Shown here one piece after another: positions 14,020 to 26,152 of a stretch of DNA of 44,853 bases (within the stretch, counting starts at the first letter, position 1; each line of letters opens with the position of its first letter). Origin of the DNA: Clostridiales bacterium. GTDB lineage: Bacteria; Bacillota; Clostridia; Christensenellales; Borkfalkiaceae. The stretch covers positions 1-44,853 of the forward strand of contig SVIW01000013.1 in NCBI GenBank assembly GCA_015069295.1, given 5' to 3'. Made by a program: the position numbers and the translations under genes. The notes beneath the pieces were generated by a model. The model was not told the origin of the DNA and did not search any database. It worked only from the letters and a program-made list of their open reading frames with translations.

Positions 14020-14601
14020 ATGGATTGGATTTTGGCAAGCGCTTCTCCGCGGCGCAAAGAACTGTTGGCGGAGCTTATAAAAGAGTTCGAAATTTGTCCC
14101 GCGGACGTAGACGAACGGGTCGAGGGCAGAGTTTCCCCGAAAAAATTGGTAAAAATTCTCGCCCGCCGCAAGGCGGTTGCCGTGGCTTGCTTGCCTGAAA
14201 ACGAGGGCAAGGGAGTTATCGGCTCGGATACCGTCGTCGCGCTTTTTCGCAACGTGCTTGGAAAGCCCAAGGACGAGGCGGACGCCGTGCGAATGTTGCA
14301 GGCGCTGTCGGGGAAAAAGCATTTCGTCTATACGGGGGTTTGTATCGCCGTTTCGAAAAACGGAAAAACCCGCTTTGTCGTGAAAGCGGCGAAAACGGCG
14401 GTGTTTTTCGAAAAATTGTCTTTGGAAAAGATTCTTGCCTACGTGGAAACGGGCTCGCCGATGGACAAGGCGGGCGGTTACGGAATACAGGACGGCGGGC
14501 TGGTGAAGAAGATAAAGGGGAGCTATGCAAACGTCGTGGGCTTGCCCGTCGAGCTTTTGGAAAAGACGTTGAAAAAATACGCGAGGAAATTAGAAAAATA
14601 A
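14020..14601 (+). CDS. maf: Maf-like nucleoside triphosphate pyrophosphatase
   Basis: A 193-residue Maf/YhdE family house-cleaning enzyme that hydrolyses dTTP, UTP or modified pyrimidine triphosphates to monophosphates; overproduction blocks septation in Bacillus. MDWILASASPRRKELL is the signature N-terminus with the Ser-Pro-Arg-Arg phosphate-binding motif. GSDTVVA (catalytic Asp loop) and the GGYGIQ segment near residue 155 are also present. I start at ATG 14020 where the family begins, although no Shine-Dalgarno is visible and the frame extends to 13957 through a terminator hairpin. The gene lies 48 bases ahead of an MreB-like gene, echoing the maf-mreB linkage known in Bacillus, which suggests a role around cell shape and division. 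Confidence 0.9.
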   Translation: MDWILASASPRRKELLAELIKEFEICPADVDERVEGRVSPKKLVKILARRKAVAVACLPENEGKGVIGSDTVVALFRNVLGKPKDEADAVRMLQALSGKKHFVYTGVCIAVSKNGKTRFVVKAAKTAVFFEKLSLEKILAYVETGSPMDKAGGYGIQDGGLVKKIKGSYANVVGLPVELLEKTLKKYARKLEK

Positions 14602-14648
14602 GAAAATCTGCTAAAAGCGTAGCTTAGCGCGGGCAGAGGGAGAAGAAA

Positions 14649-15656
14649 ATGATAAAACTGGCGATAGACCTCGGTTCTTCGATGACGAAGATATACCGTG
14701 CGGACACGAATAGCGGCGTGGTGCTTGCCGAGCCGTCTTGCGTGGCGGCGACGGGGGATGAGAAAATAAAAGCGATTGGGAAAGAAGCGAAAAACCTGAT
14801 TGGGAAAACGGCGGAATATACGAATATCGTATATCCCGTATACGAAGGAGAGATTGCCCATCCGCGGTTTGCGGCGGCGATGCTGAAAGAATTTCTTTCC
14901 CGTATCGGACTGAAAGCTTCGTCCATAAAGCGGGCGCAGGTACTCTTTTCCGTGCCTTGCGGAATCAGTGAACGGACGTTAAACGACTATGTTGCTTTGA
15001 CGGAAGAATGCGGGTTGAAAAAGGTATGGTTCGTCGAACAGCCCTATTTGGCGGCGCTTGGCGCGGGGGCAATTTTATCCGAGACCGACCCCGTGTTCTG
15101 TTTGGATATCGGCGGCGGCGTTTCCAACGCGGCGGTGGTTTCGGCGGACGGGATTATCGCGGGGATATCGATGAACGTCGGCGGGAATAATATGGACGCC
15201 AACATTATCGCGAAGCTTTCCTCGAACAATAAGCTCCTCGTCGGAGCGTTGACGGCGGAGAAAATTAAAAACGAAATCGCTTCCTTATCACCCGGCGCGC
15301 AGGGTACGATGGTTGCCGAGGGTAGCTCGATAGAGACTTGTCAACCGACGGCGGCGTCCGTGCAGGCGGCGGAGATTACCGATTGCGTGCGCGTGTATAT
15401 AAATAAGGTGGTCGAATATGCAGTGGAAGTATTGCGCACTTTGCCCGCCGAAGTCGCGGCAACGGTGAATAGGGGCGGCGTTTTGCTGTCGGGCGGAATT
15501 ATGAAAATTCCCTTCGTGCCGCAATATATCGCCGCAAAGCTGGGTATGCGGTATCGGGTGTGCGAAGAACCGCAGTACGCAACCGTCTTGGGCGGCGGCG
15601 TTTTGCTTCGGGATAAGGCGCTTTTGAGCCATTTTGCCAAAGTAACGGACGCGTGA
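14649..15656 (+). CDS. mreB: MreB/Mbl-family bacterial actin
   Basis: A 335-residue actin-fold ATPase of the MreB family that polymerises under the membrane and guides the elongation machinery. Seen: IDLGSSMTKIY (phosphate 1), FSVPCGISE (the family usually has VPSGITEVE), LDIGGGVSNAAVV (phosphate 2), IAGISMNVGGNNMD, and GGVLLSGGIMKIP (adenosine motif). Length is normal. The sequence departs from canonical MreB in several loops, so it may be a paralogue such as Mbl/MreBH, or an MreB-like protein dedicated to another process; no mreC or mreD follows. The start has GGGAGAAGAAA just upstream. It may be co-transcribed with maf; a terminator follows at 15674. Confidence 0.8.
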   Translation: MIKLAIDLGSSMTKIYRADTNSGVVLAEPSCVAATGDEKIKAIGKEAKNLIGKTAEYTNIVYPVYEGEIAHPRFAAAMLKEFLSRIGLKASSIKRAQVLFSVPCGISERTLNDYVALTEECGLKKVWFVEQPYLAALGAGAILSETDPVFCLDIGGGVSNAAVVSADGIIAGISMNVGGNNMDANIIAKLSSNNKLLVGALTAEKIKNEIASLSPGAQGTMVAEGSSIETCQPTAASVQAAEITDCVRVYINKVVEYAVEVLRTLPAEVAATVNRGGVLLSGGIMKIPFVPQYIAAKLGMRYRVCEEPQYATVLGGGVLLRDKALLSHFAKVTDA

Positions 15657-15673
15657 AGAAAAAAATTTAAGCT

Positions 15674-15720
15674 CGGAATCCCTTGAAAATAAAGGGGTTC
15701 CGAATTTTTTTAAAAATTTT
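15674..15720 (+). terminator. Terminator after the mreB-like gene
   Basis: CGGAATCCCTT (15674-15684) pairs with AAGGGGTTCCG (15692-15702), followed by a long T-rich tract. Confidence 0.85.
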
Positions 15721-15743
15721 TTAAATTTTTTTTGAAAAACCCC

Positions 15744-15771
15744 TTGACAAATGAAAATTTTCTGTTATAAT
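15744..15771 (+). promoter_or_regulatory. Consensus promoter of the candidate large RNA
   Basis: TTGACA (15744-15749) and TATAAT (15766-15771) are both perfect and 16 bases apart. Expected transcription start is near 15778. No long open frame with a family match follows, so the promoter drives an RNA or very short genes. Confidence 0.8.
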
Positions 15772-15777
15772 AAAGGT

Positions 15778-16520
15778 ACAAAAGAAAGAAACGAACAAAA
15801 AATGTTCCAATCTTTCAAATTTAGACGAGGTTACACCAATGCACAAATAAAGGCAGCCGACAGGGGTTGGCAAAAGTGCCGTAGGGATGCGGCGAAAAAG
15901 ACCACACGAAGGAGGGTACGAAAAGCGATGATTCCTACCCACGAAGAGGCGGAAGCTTAAAAGCGGAAGCCTAAAAAAAGCAGGCGTTCGTAATGGAACC
16001 TAGAACGGGGCAAATGGGAAATTGACGAAGTTCCGGTAGGCGCTCGGCGGTCGGAAAGCGACGGGGGAAAGAACGAACAAACACGGTAGCAAAGAGAAAT
16101 TTGACGAAATTTCGAGGGCAATCGGAAACGCGCACCCGCTAAGCTGTAGAGGCGGAAAAAGTAGAAGGAGGTACAAAGCTATGATTAGTACAACTTCTAA
16201 AGGGGAACCCACGTACGGTTAAACGCCGGAGGGTTTCGGCGAAAAGAAAAAACCGAATAACGTATAAGGAGGAACAAAGACATGATCCTTTTTAAGACGG
16301 CAGAACGGTACTATCACAAAGAAGATTAAGCGAGGTATTAGTCCAATGAACGAGATATGCGAGGGCGTTAAATAAAAAAGTAACCCGAGTGGAAATTAGC
16401 AGCGTGGAACTGCAAAGCAACGTATGATTGCAAAAAACGGGTGAAAAGAAAAACGTAACGCCCAAAAAACTAAATATGAAAATAATGCTCCTGTTGGATA
16501 ACAGGAGCTTAATTTTTTCT
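15778..16520 (+). ncRNA. Candidate large structured RNA (about 740 nt)
   Basis: Between a perfect promoter and a perfect terminator lies about 740 bases with no recognisable protein, rich in A-rich linkers and hairpins. Hairpins read by eye: 15784-15816 (GAAAGA/TCTTTC around GAACA/TGTTC), 15855-15870 (GCCGAC/GTTGGC), 15878-15893 (GCCGTA/TGCGGC, GGGA loop), 15914-15940 (GGGTA/TACCC), 16017-16034 (GGAAATT/AAGTTCC, GACG loop), 16050-16062 (GTCG/CGAC), 16096-16113 (GAAATTT/AAATTTC, GACG loop), 16162-16199 (TAGAAG/CTTCTA), 16224-16241 (CGCCG/CGGCG), 16266-16290 (AAGGA/TCCTT). Three hairpins enclose a GGAGG plus ATGAT that opens a 10-15 codon frame (15928-15960, 16181-16222, 16282-16329). It is not RNase P RNA, tmRNA or 6S RNA by signature. 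It could belong to a large-RNA class such as ROOL, GOLLD or OLE, or be new; a multi-leader peptide message is the alternative. Confidence 0.6.
16487..16520 (+). terminator. Terminator of the candidate large RNA
   Basis: The perfect 9-bp stem GCTCCTGTT / AACAGGAGC with loop GGAT is followed by TTAATTTTTT. Nothing coding lies just upstream, which shows that the preceding stretch is a transcription unit of its own. Confidence 0.9.
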
Positions 16521-16524
16521 AAGA

Positions 16525-16643
16525 AACGGGTTATATACGTCGCAATACTTCGTCAAACTTTACGTTTTGCCTCGTTACGTACGTTAATGTACGCGCCTCG
16601 GCAAAGCCGCAGTTTTCCTTGTCTTGCTCGTATCTAACCCGTT
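16525..16643 (+). repeat. Imperfect long inverted repeat element (about 119 bp)
   Basis: The ends AACGGGTTATATACG (16525-16539) and CGTATCTAACCCGTT (16629-16643) are inverted repeats with one mismatch. Inner parts also match loosely (GTTTTGCCTCG against CCTCGGCAAAGC), around a centre TACGTACGTTAATGTACG. It may be a small palindromic repeat or a non-autonomous mobile unit. A further copy of the right end lies at 16718-16732. Confidence 0.6.
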
Positions 16644-16659
16644 CCGTGAAACCGACAGG

Positions 16660-16830
16660 TAACGTCGCAGGTCGGTGGAAGGATAGATAAGACTGGATGC
16701 AACGGCACGTTGCTGCTCGTATCTAACCCGTTTCGTGAAGCCACTCGGTGTTTTAAATTCAGCCGCAATTCCGAACTCGCAGAACGACGGAGTGATAGAT
16801 AAGACTGGATGCATCCCGCGTTGCCGGCGC
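16660..16830 (+). repeat. Dispersed repeat (GATAGATAAG family), copies 4 and 5
   Basis: The cores at 16682-16713 and 16794-16813 match the copies at 4.8 and 11.7 kb. Between them a second CGTATCTAACCCGTT end is followed by TCGTGAAGCC. The whole stretch 16521-16866 shows no gene, only repeats. Confidence 0.8.
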
Positions 16831-16866
16831 ATCGTTTATAAATTCACCAAAAATACTGTAAAATAC

Positions 16867-16896
16867 TTGACAAACCGGGGGAGGGGGCTATATAAT
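16867..16896 (+). promoter_or_regulatory. Promoter of the small lipoprotein
   Basis: TTGACA (16867-16872) and TATAAT (16891-16896) are separated by 18 bases that contain a G-rich run. Confidence 0.75.
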
Positions 16897-16928
16897 AGGA
16901 CTACAAATATATTTGGAGGTTTCTTATT

Positions 16929-17153
16929 ATGAAGAAATTACTTATTGGCGCTTTGGCTCTTTGCTCCCTTTTCGCGTTCGCTGCTTGTACAGACGGCAAG
17001 TGCGACAAATGCGGTAAAGAAGGCGACGACGTATTCAACTGGAATGGCGACGTGATCGAATATGAGGGTGTAAGTATGCCTTCGTATGATCTCGGCGGTG
17101 AATACTGTATGGACTGTGCGGAAGAAGTTTTCTACGAACAGATGGGTCTTTAA
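16929..17153 (+). CDS. Small lipoprotein with paired CxxC motifs
   Basis: A 74-residue exported protein. It has a lipoprotein signal peptide (MKKLLIGALALCSLFAFAAC, with the lipid-modified Cys at 20). The mature part carries CDKCGKEG and CMDCAEE, two CxxC pairs that could bind zinc or form disulfides outside the membrane. I do not recognise the family. The ATG at 16929 has TTTGGAGG about 8 bases upstream, its own consensus promoter, and one of the longest perfect terminator stems in the window behind it, all of which suggest strong, separate expression. It resembles a family of very short Clostridia lipoproteins with knuckle motifs, but no function can be assigned. Confidence 0.75.
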   Translation: MKKLLIGALALCSLFAFAACTDGKCDKCGKEGDDVFNWNGDVIEYEGVSMPSYDLGGEYCMDCAEEVFYEQMGL

Positions 17154-17167
17154 TTAAGTACAAAAAA

Positions 17168-17207
17168 CAAGAAATAGGGCGCAGCTTTAGCTGCGCCCTA
17201 TTTCTTG
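17168..17207 (+). terminator. Perfect 18-bp terminator-type hairpin
   Basis: CAAGAAATAGGGCGCAGC pairs perfectly with its complement across a TTTA loop. It ends the lipoprotein message; only a short T content follows within the stem's own 3' arm. Confidence 0.8.
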
Positions 17208-17210
17208 TGA

Positions 17211-17242
17211 AAACCACCCGCGCGAAAACGCAGGTGGTTTTT
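17211..17242 (-). terminator. Terminator of glyS
   Basis: On the minus strand AAAACCACCTGCG pairs with CGCGGGTGGTTTT (one gap), just beyond the glyS stop. Confidence 0.8.
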
Positions 17243-17244
17243 CA

Positions 17245-18645
17245 TTAAAATTCGATTTTTTCTTCAATATACTTAACGGCTTCTTCCACGCTTACGCGGA
17301 TTTGTTCCATCGTATCGCGGTCGCGCACGGTAACCGTATTGTCTTCCAAGGTCTGGAAGTCGATGGTTACGCAGTACGGCGTCCCGATTTCGTCCTGACG
17401 GCGATAGCGTTTCCCAATCGAACCGGTAACGTCGTAGGTTGCGGGGAATTTCTTGCACATCTTCGCGTAAATTTCGTCTGCCTTTTCGGAAAGGTTTTTC
17501 TGCAAGGGCAGGACGGCGCATTTATAAGGCGCAAGCGCGGGGTGCAAACGCAATACCGTACGGATATCGTTCTTTTCTGCGTCTACGACTTCTTCGTCGT
17601 ATGCGTCCGTCAAGAATGCCAATACCACGCGGTCTGCCCCCAGCGAAGGTTCGATAACGTAAGGTACGTATCTTTCGTTCGTAACGGGGTCGAGATAATT
17701 GATGGGCTTGCCGCATTCCTTTGCGTGTTGGGAAAGGTCGTAATCCGTTCTGTCCGCAATCCCCCAAAGTTCGCCCCAGCCGAACGCGAATTTGTATTCA
17801 AAGTCGGTCGTCGCTTTCGAATAGAAACAAAGCTCTTCTTTCGAGTGGTCGCGAAGATGTAAGTTTTCCGCTTTCATACCGAGCGAAAGCAACCAATCGC
17901 GGCAGAAATCTTTCCAATACGCAAACCATTCGAGGTCGGTGCCGGGCTTGCAGAAGAATTCGAGCTCCATTTGTTCGAACTCGCGGGTACGGAAAGTGAA
18001 GTTGCCGGGCGTGATTTCGTTACGGAAGGATTTCCCGATTTGCCCGATACCGAACGGCACGCGCATACGCGTCGAACGCTGTACGTTTTCAAAGTTGACG
18101 AAAATACCCTGCGCCGTTTCGGGGCGAAGGTATACCGTGTTTGCGCTGTCCTCGGTAACGCCTTGGAAGGTCTTAAACATCAAATTAAACTTTCTAATCG
18201 AAGTAAAATCGGAGTTGCCGCAGATAGGGCATACGATTTTATGTTCGTTGATAAAGCTTTCCAACTGGTCGTTGTCCATACTTTCCACTTTGACGTCCAA
18301 CCCCTTTTTCGCTACGTAGTTTTCTACGAGGTTGTCCGCACGGTGGCGGGCTTTACAAGACTTGCAGTCCATCAAGGGGTCGGAAAAGCCGCCGAGGTGT
18401 CCCGACGCTTGCCAAGTGCGCGTATTCATCAAAATAGCGCAATCTACGCCCGTATTGTGGGGATTTTCTTGAATAAATTTTTTCCACCAAGCTTTTTTGA
18501 CGTTGTTTTTCAGTTCGACGCCCAAAGGACCGTAATCCCAAGTGTTTGCCAAACCGCCGTAAATTTCGCTGCCGGGGAAGATAAAGCCTCTGTTTTTGCA
18601 AAGAGAAACGAGCTTTTCCATCGTAACGGCTCTTTTTTCTGCCAT
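17245..18645 (-). CDS. glyS: Glycyl-tRNA synthetase, dimeric (alpha2) type
   Basis: A 466-residue class II enzyme that charges tRNA-Gly. This is the single-chain dimeric form, as in many Gram-positives, not the alpha2beta2 form. Seen in order: [20 protein letters not shown] (family N-terminus), an insertion with two Cys pairs (CKSCKA and CPICG) that probably binds zinc, [12 protein letters not shown] (motif 1 region), [23 protein letters not shown] split around motif 2, [13 protein letters not shown] (motif 3), and a C-terminal anticodon-binding domain. ATG 18645 is chosen over TTG 18651 because AAAGGAG lies 8 bases upstream. The leader is short and has no T-box, unlike many glyS genes of this group. 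Monocistronic. Confidence 0.97.
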
Positions 18646-26067: not shown

Positions 26068-26152
26068 GCGGTCGTGGCGGAACTGGCAGACGCGCAAGAC
26101 TAAGGATCTTGTGGGTAACTCCATGCAGGTTCAATTCCTGTCGACCGCACCA
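26068..26152 (+). tRNA. tRNA-Leu, anticodon AAG, CCA encoded
   Basis: Acceptor GCGGTCG pairs with CGACCGC (26142-26148). The D-arm has GCG/CGC. The anticodon stem CAAGA/TCTTG encloses CTAAGGA, giving anticodon AAG for CUN codons. A long variable arm (TGGGTAACTCCAT) marks a class II tRNA, and the T-loop is TTCAATT. A34 is probably deaminated to inosine to widen reading. The 3' 23 bases are duplicated at 34740-34762, so this gene is the integration site of the element that follows. Integration leaves the tRNA sequence intact but removes it from its own terminator, which now lies beyond attR. Confidence 0.95.
26130..26152 (+). repeat. attL core (tRNA-Leu 3' end)
   Basis: The 23-bp sequence starting TTCAATTCCTGTCGACC and ending with the encoded CCA is identical at 34740-34762. 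Confidence 0.9.

Follow-up and report, generated by a model that had tools for sequence, protein, structure and literature searches.

Among bacterial RNAs of several hundred nucleotides with many helices, ROOL, GOLLD and OLE have functions that are unknown or only partly known; ROOL env-120 measures 659 nt, and ROOL and GOLLD are described as RNAs of phages and prophages (PMC12286853). The raiA motif RNA (ModT) is reported as a conserved structured RNA in Bacillota (PMC11706538). Some regulatory RNAs also encode a small protein, as described for SgrS/SgrT and for VcdRP, whose VcdP has 29 aa. SgrS encodes a single small protein, SgrT. Attenuators and leader peptides combine a short ORF with a stop codon placed on a helix that the ribosome could block. 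In the bar minigenes of phage lambda, initiation is followed by an immediate stop (PMC8012679), and the AUGUAA of plant NIP5;1 likewise consists of a start at once followed by a stop. As short ORFs are described as common finds in searches of bacterial intergenic regions (PMC6429828), a single short ORF would not be notable.

In the current study, we analysed a window of 44,853 nt from a Clostridiales bacterium (contig SVIW01000013.1, positions 1 to 44,853). It contains a unit on the + strand, at 15744-16520, with its own promoter and its own terminator. The unit resembles ROOL, GOLLD and OLE in its length of several hundred nucleotides and its many helices; it differs from them in lacking an Rfam match and in carrying micro-ORFs that look translated, and from ROOL and GOLLD also in that none of 50,697 phage records matches it. 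Like raiA, it is a conserved structured RNA of Bacillota, yet the raiA model has no match within it. Dual-function small RNAs such as SgrS/SgrT and VcdRP carry one small protein each, whereas the unit carries three to five or more micro-ORFs, several as short as 2-4 codons, and so resembles them only in part. As in attenuators, an ORF ends on a helix that could be blocked by a ribosome, but the unit is a stand-alone transcript with no conserved downstream gene. Its first micro-ORF, ORF A, recalls minigenes and AUG-stop elements; unlike these it opens a conserved multi-ORF structured RNA, and stalling in it is putative. In the literature searched, which lay mostly outside subscription papers, we found no described element that joins a stand-alone covarying fold to a conserved chain of micro-ORFs.

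The initial annotation of this DNA had proposed a large structured RNA enclosed by a perfect promoter and a perfect terminator, and both ends were borne out by a 12/12 sigma-70 promoter and a 9-pair stem with a T-rich tract (Table 1). A scan of 14500-18000 returned 5 promoter-like and 8 terminator-like sites; as the shuffle means are 3.0 and 5.0, weak sites of either kind say little. Only two promoters in that interval match at 12/12 positions, at 15744 and at 16867. The second (TTGACA-18-TATAAT, within 16867-17153) lies upstream of a 74-aa ORF (16929-17153) that by eye resembles a lipoprotein. Between the unit and this next gene, directly 3' of the terminator, lies an interspersed repeat of ~325 bp (16521-16845) with 52 matches in the genome at E ≤ 1e-5, self included (e.g., 95% identity over 128 bases); by eye, a similar sequence also stands 3' of the unit in L010. 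A TGATAAGGGGGAAAATGATG stretch with Shine-Dalgarno and ATG recurs shortly 3' of the unit in L013, L021, L026, L035, L036 and L063. The only tRNA that ARAGORN reports in the window is a tRNA-Leu with anticodon AAG at 26068-26152. BLAST found no second copy of the unit in the genome, the next best match having E 0.013.

Table 1. Positions of the features of the unit within the window.
Feature	Position	Strand	Basis and remarks
Promoter TTGACA-16-TATAAT	15744..15771	+	12/12 match, TG before -10; kept in relatives
A-rich 5' element GTACAAAAGAAAGAAAC..ACAAAAAATGTT with GAAAG/CTTTC pairing	15776..15817	+	A1 alignment, model R1; pairing by eye and in fold
ORF A, start-stop micro-ORF CCA-ATG CAC AAA TAA (MHK) after GAGGT	15839..15850	+	Sequence and relatives
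Hairpin H1, GCCGAC...GTTGGC	15856..15871	+	A5 columns 24-26/43-45, two-sided changes; broken in up to 7/35 sequences
Hairpin H2, GCCGTA-GGGA-TGCGGC, GNRA-type loop	15878..15893	+	A5, two-sided changes
ORF B1, MIPTHEEAEA, after AAGGAGGG	15928..15960	+	Sequence and relatives
Optional middle domain with two AATTGACGAA-type hairpins (16010-16035, 16089-16114)	16010..16114	+	Repeat D2; absent from the shorter L015 and L016 (by eye)
ORF B2, MISTTSKGEPTYG, after AAGGAGGT; most relatives end near ..DTPTY	16181..16222	+	Frame conservation
ORF B3, MILFKTAERYYHKED, after AAGGAGG; relatives ..RYFNK	16282..16329	+	Sequence and relatives
ORF C, CCA-ATG AAC .. (MNEICEGVK, stop)	16346..16375	+	Sequence and relatives
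P1 5' strand GGGCGTTA, inside ORF C	16363..16370	+	Own-strand energy, covariation in relatives
P2 5' strand ACCCG, partner 16438-16442	16383..16387	+	A3 fold and counts
P3 hairpin GCAG...CTGC	16399..16413	+	A3 fold and counts
P4 hairpin GCAA CGTATGA TTGC	16417..16431	+	A3 fold and counts
P2 3' strand CGGGT	16438..16442	+	A3 fold and counts
P1 3' strand TAACGCCC	16456..16463	+	Window's own strands; helix counted in relatives
3' motif AAAACTAAATA; commonest family form YACAACTGAATA	16466..16476	+	Conserved across relatives
Intrinsic terminator	16487..16518	+	9-bp stem 16487-16508, then T-rich tract; terminators in relatives too

The surroundings agree with the description first given of them. 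Judged by eye from their translations, the flanking genes resemble housekeeping genes, and no phage or plasmid record in two collections matches the unit; phage (50,697 records), plasmid and core-pattern searches gave no match to the unit. A phage origin was considered from nine viral contigs that matched the promoter pattern and was rejected, all 12 matches reading as phage-type promoters ahead of other genes. On these contigs (L116-L124), TATAATNAAGGTACAAAARRAA serves as promoter and transcript start before other genes, up to three times per contig; as it recurs there, the start of the unit represents a common strong-promoter sequence.

The unit folds to -196 kcal/mol, below all 20 dinucleotide shuffles (-160.6, sd 6.6; z -5.4). 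Of the hairpins first read by eye, the one with a GGGA loop and the two with GACG loops in the middle domain are present. However, the large-RNA families that had been suggested as candidates (ROOL, GOLLD, OLE, HEARO and raiA) were not recovered: the unit has no Rfam match at gathering score, at which the whole window yields only a tRNA, and at E ≤ 10 the interval 15600-16900 gives 13 matches, none of them to a large-RNA family and those within the unit at chance level. The unit matches no known RNA family (Rfam). A raiA search of its own genome gave no match, and the controls of that search were silent too. As candidate identities, 6S RNA and tmRNA were rejected, since the genome's own copies sit elsewhere (G000:C14:6961-7140 and G000:C3:37341-37706).

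Relatives were sought by DNA search in 301 genomes of the family, 79 of which gave matches at E ≤ 0.01, some of them at chance level or confined to the first 37 bases; units were read from those matches plus a named collection. From 83 stretches fetched we set aside non-units (L058, L079, L092, L098, L102, L104 and later L084), partial units (L060, L078, L081, L111) and units without an anchor (L059, L068), and corrected the anchors of L019, L043 and L088. The main set comprises 74 units from related gut bacteria, of three genera and a divergent fourth, all of one Clostridia family. The window's genus, here g1, was grouped by locus number, and L057 is classed with the non-g1 units yet is in fact g1. 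Among the 201 genomes of the family with ≥90% completeness, 112 contain a match to model R1 of the 5' element; these 112 come from 3 of 15 genera. The units of the fourth genus (L073, L155) appear diverged by eye; both carry start-stop ORFs followed by near-identical CCCTCC..GGAGG hairpins, with the look of repeated modules. Among weak hits within the family, G006, G024, G027, G005 and G050 are not units and G011 is one. At the level of the order (396 genomes), all 26 hits at E < 1e-6 fell inside the family, and the three weaker outside hits that were read were due to chance, as were both hits at E ≤ 0.001 outside the family among 391 genomes of the class. The weak hits L151, L153, L154, L185 and L186 were read as candidate relatives outside the family and all rejected as chance. 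Named records with units are Candidatus Gallimonas caecicola (L088) and Candidatus Coproplasma stercoripullorum (L101), both Clostridia in the NCBI taxonomy, which we take to be members of the GTDB family Borkfalkiaceae. Near 32 loci lies a gene that by eye is mreB-like, and near 12 others an antiporter-like gene; no universal partner gene was seen in flanks of up to 4-5 kb, often 1.5 kb.

The units share one order of parts: an A-rich 5' element, ORF A, at least one ORF B, ORF C, a 3' domain, a YACAACTGAATA-like motif and the terminator. Their length, counted from the -35 hexamer through the terminator, is 366-897 nt once plainly wrong automatic ends (e.g., L048, L050) are set aside, and short units contain ORFs A, B and C only. 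Three B-type ORFs stand in a row in the window, L181 of genus g7 holds three as well, and extra B-type ORFs occur in many g1 units. The window's unit is not spanned by any ORF of ordinary length, and the longest same-strand ORF inside it has 69 aa (ORFs of at least 40 aa listed). The initial statement that the unit holds no recognisable protein was not confirmed: it contains five Shine-Dalgarno-led micro-ORFs (A, B1, B2, B3 and C in Table 1), and relatives conserve the start, the stop or the frame of these ORFs. The 5' element takes the family form GTACAAAARGAAAG..ACAAAAAATGTT in the A1 alignment (67 of 74 units). In g1, a pair of hairpins follows ORF A, and the loop of the second is GGGA; by eye a GAAA-loop hairpin occupies the same place in other genera. 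In the A5 alignment (35 of 39 sequences), 7 of the 8 base pairs of the two g1 hairpins changed on both sides.

ORF A was picked by Shine-Dalgarno and start context alone, which yielded a candidate in 72 of the 74 units. All 72 stop within 4 codons (13, 39 and 20 units with 2, 3 and 4 codons). Stops that early occur in 11/72 units in frame +2 and at a rate of 0.192 at random positions in units; the frame +1 control (39/72) is inflated because ATGA contains TGA. Later units, which are not fully independent because many came from a model covering ORF A, contain a candidate in 27/31 cases, and 24 of these 27 stop within 4 codons, two stop at 5 and 6, and one is open. On re-reading, left-out loci proved to have a three-codon ORF A (L059/L060, L068, L078, L081), and among 11 unparsed model-hit loci a short ORF A was found in L132, L183 and L148 and none in L141 and L200; L146, L149, L192, L193 and L202 could not be reliably located. 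ORF A is absent from a subset of genus g7, since re-read loci and later units include startless or open cases, six in all (L042, L141, L142, L147, L150, L200). L037 has no ATG in ORF A, and in L203 the ORF runs to 11 codons. The encoded peptide shows no conservation. With its Shine-Dalgarno, ATG, very few codons and stop, ORF A has the makeup of a minigene or start-stop ORF.

Start-stop ORFs with Shine-Dalgarno sites behind a strong promoter would also suit a ribosome decoy or store, i.e., an abundant RNA whose strong Shine-Dalgarno/ATG sites and immediate stops tie up or recycle ribosomes or drop peptidyl-tRNA and thereby damp translation, and lambda minigenes of this kind are described as inhibiting protein synthesis (PMC8012679). 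We consider a decoy improbable, as a plain one has no need of a covarying P1-P4 domain or of the peptide motifs kept in ORF B.

ORF B spans ~9-23 codons across units. In ORF B2, DTPTY lies in frame with the start at all 25 sites that a nucleotide pattern picks out; the sites belong to 24 of 42 g1 units and cover seven lengths (4, 5, 7, 8, 12, 13 and 14 codons); in L076 the motif is out of frame with the nearest ATG and in frame with the ATG used by its relatives. For RYFNK, the codons for R, Y, F and K changed 21 times synonymously and 7 times non-synonymously among 17 distinct g1 sequences. This count is anchored on nucleotides (anchor present in 34 of 42 g1 units) and was used instead of an earlier RYF coding test (z 25), which was biased because its sequences had been chosen by peptide. 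The RYF pattern occurs at 50 sites, 12 without an upstream start and 38 with one; RYFxK is in frame with the start, at 6 to 9 codons, in 36/36 occurrences inside an ORF B, and the two out-of-frame matches are something else, namely the B2 motif (L061) and a Shine-Dalgarno (L064). In L036 and L065, GTG replaces ATG in ORF B and one whole codon is inserted, with the frame kept. The whole-ORF coding score reaches z 3.8 in non-g1 units, with other frames negative, and z 0.7 in g1; the non-g1 value is the only whole-ORF score that stands out. For the 29 units classed as non-g1, pairing between the ORF B Shine-Dalgarno and codons of the same ORF is equalled by 0/2000 permutations, while in g1 it is marginal (62/2000); the coding and Shine-Dalgarno tests omit L010, L011 and L033, for which the automatic ORF choice was wrong. 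As judged from these comparisons, ORF B shows apparent peptide-level constraint.

One explanation for this constraint is that the unit is a polycistronic mRNA whose product is the ORF B micropeptides (..RYFNK.., ..DTPTY..), with the structure, ORF A and ORF C tuning translation or stability. The frames and synonymous bias of ORFs B and B2, the further B-type ORFs that L181 and many g1 units carry, and the strong promoter with Shine-Dalgarno sites would all be accommodated. However, ORF A, with its 2-4 residues and no conserved peptide, and ORF C, without clear peptide constraint, are placed as constantly as ORF B. The ORF B peptides vary from genus to genus, and in non-g1 genera the conservation of ORF B coincides in part with its own hairpin. 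With these points against it, a micropeptide mRNA appears rather unlikely.

ORF C was picked by nucleotide context only, and 91 of 105 units gave 92 sites. Every site reaches a stop within 14 codons (0.549 at random) and 90 do so within 11 (0.459 at random); the length is mostly 8-11 codons. The start context CC(A/G)-ATG-NAC is present in 71/71 units, most of which had been picked by requiring a similar context and length, with the last C left free; L152 and L077 have a GTG start. Among the window's 16 Shine-Dalgarno genes, codon 2 is NAC in 1/16 and CCR precedes ATG in none. NAC is also codon 2 of ORF A in 46 of 72 units and in 11 of 27 later units; in the window, the ATG-NAC pairs lie at 15839-15844 (ORF A) and 16346-16351 (ORF C). 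NAC codons (His, Asn, Asp, Tyr) are the four codons of queuosine-type tRNAs. The codon-2 bias of ORFs A and C might reflect sensing of the tRNA modification state, and an RNA motif CCRAUGNAC may equally account for the data. The whole-ORF coding score of ORF C is z 2.8 in g1 (frame +1 2.6) and z -1.3 in the others (frame +1 3.1). Pairing of its Shine-Dalgarno with downstream codons is evident in 29 non-g1 units (0/2000) and absent in g1 (957/2000).

The end of ORF C pairs with the strand just 5' of the 3' motif to form P1. Across 71 of the 74 units (L073, L075 and L077 omitted, ORF C start set by hand in nine), the own strands of P1 give -11.38 kcal/mol vs -7.63 (sd 0.30) for permuted partners, with 0/5000 permutations as low. 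The own partner ranks in the top 5% in only 19/71 units, which we ascribe to the sequences that relatives share. A pooled alignment of 27 g1 3' modules (A2, 27 of 34 references) folded to 3 pairs only and did not show P1-P4, in our reading because the P1 strands slide between subgroups. It was split by eye into A3 (11) and A4 (13), with L021, L023 and L067 in neither. Blind folding of A4 with RNAalifold recovered P1-P4, with 90.8% of cells pairing and two-sided changes at 12 of 20 pairs; its covariation score was reached by 0/500 shuffles and slid versions gave at most 48%, while one weaker measure was reached by 10/500. In A3, blind folding gave P2-P4, not P1, plus four pairs judged spurious; only the 12 P2-P4 pairs were counted, and two weaker measures were reached by 7/500 and 301/500. 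These shuffle counts are not probabilities, because the aligned sequences are related. The stop of ORF C falls within the P1 5' strand or at most 12 nt 3' of it in 68/69 units (median 3 nt past), two of the 71 units having been set aside for weak pairing.

The blind recovery of P1-P4 on 13 relatives, together with covariation in the two 5' hairpins, upholds the initial annotation of a large structured RNA. A purely noncoding ornate RNA, with Shine-Dalgarno-like and ATG triplets incidental to the fold, would account for this covariation, for the fold z-score and for the weak whole-ORF coding scores, and absence of an Rfam match would be expected of a new class. Yet it would leave the stop positions, the frames held over seven lengths, GTG in place of ATG and the synonymous bias unexplained, and we find it hardly credible. 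The earlier view was thus only partly right: the RNA is structured, but not simply noncoding, given the conserved frames or stops inside the short ORFs. A conserved coding frame through the whole unit, named at the outset as an argument against a structured RNA, is absent, and conservation of frames and stops is found within the short ORFs instead.

With P1 over the stop of the last ORF and a terminator next, the 3' part also looks like an attenuator, in which the ORFs would be leader peptides governing read-through into the next gene. We regard this as very unlikely, since neighbours differ by genus with no shared downstream gene in the flanks of ≤4-5 kb (often 1.5 kb), and since the next gene in the window carries a 12/12 promoter of its own and is separated from the unit by the ~325 bp interspersed repeat.

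On comparative grounds, the anatomy by itself is very probably as laid out above, i.e., a unit with its own promoter and terminator, a P1-P4 domain, a GNRA hairpin and micro-ORFs A, B and C with conserved starts, stops or frames. The explanation that we favour, tentatively and at a little under even confidence, combines a fold with reading by ribosomes: the unit would be a trans-acting RNA that stands alone, and P1 would open when a ribosome terminates on ORF C. Ribosomes would load at the Shine-Dalgarno sites, read a few codons and stop. As the ORF B Shine-Dalgarno outside g1 tends to pair with codons of ORF B, translation of ORF B would open its own helix. Since the stop codon of ORF C is placed at the foot of P1, termination would leave the P1 5' strand covered by the ribosome, and P1 and the 3' domain would stay open. 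Absence of ribosomes or slow recycling would change the state of P1 and the 3' domain, and the RNA would report local translation to a reader of the 3' domain or of the YACAACTGAATA tail; we infer this switch step. Against it, no alternative structure tied to termination was noticed, and no conserved downstream gene offers itself as an output. From the Shine-Dalgarno pairings and the position of the ORF C stop, successive helices could open with the transit of ribosomes, P1 last. It is possible, if on balance unlikely, that the unit is a new kind of genetic element, a trans-acting RNA machine for counting or sensing ribosomes. Its sensor would be the chain of start-stop micro-ORFs, every one of them coupled to a helix, and termination on the last would switch the conserved 3' domain.

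Large bacterial RNAs are usually sorted into coding and noncoding, and the unit looks like a conserved counter-example, a folded RNA in which frames of 2-4 codons and of about ten codons are apparently selected and no long gene is served. If it is gated by ribosomes, it would provide a direct link from the state of translation to a trans-acting RNA. With its shortest relatives below 420 nt, it is also a compact and testable object.
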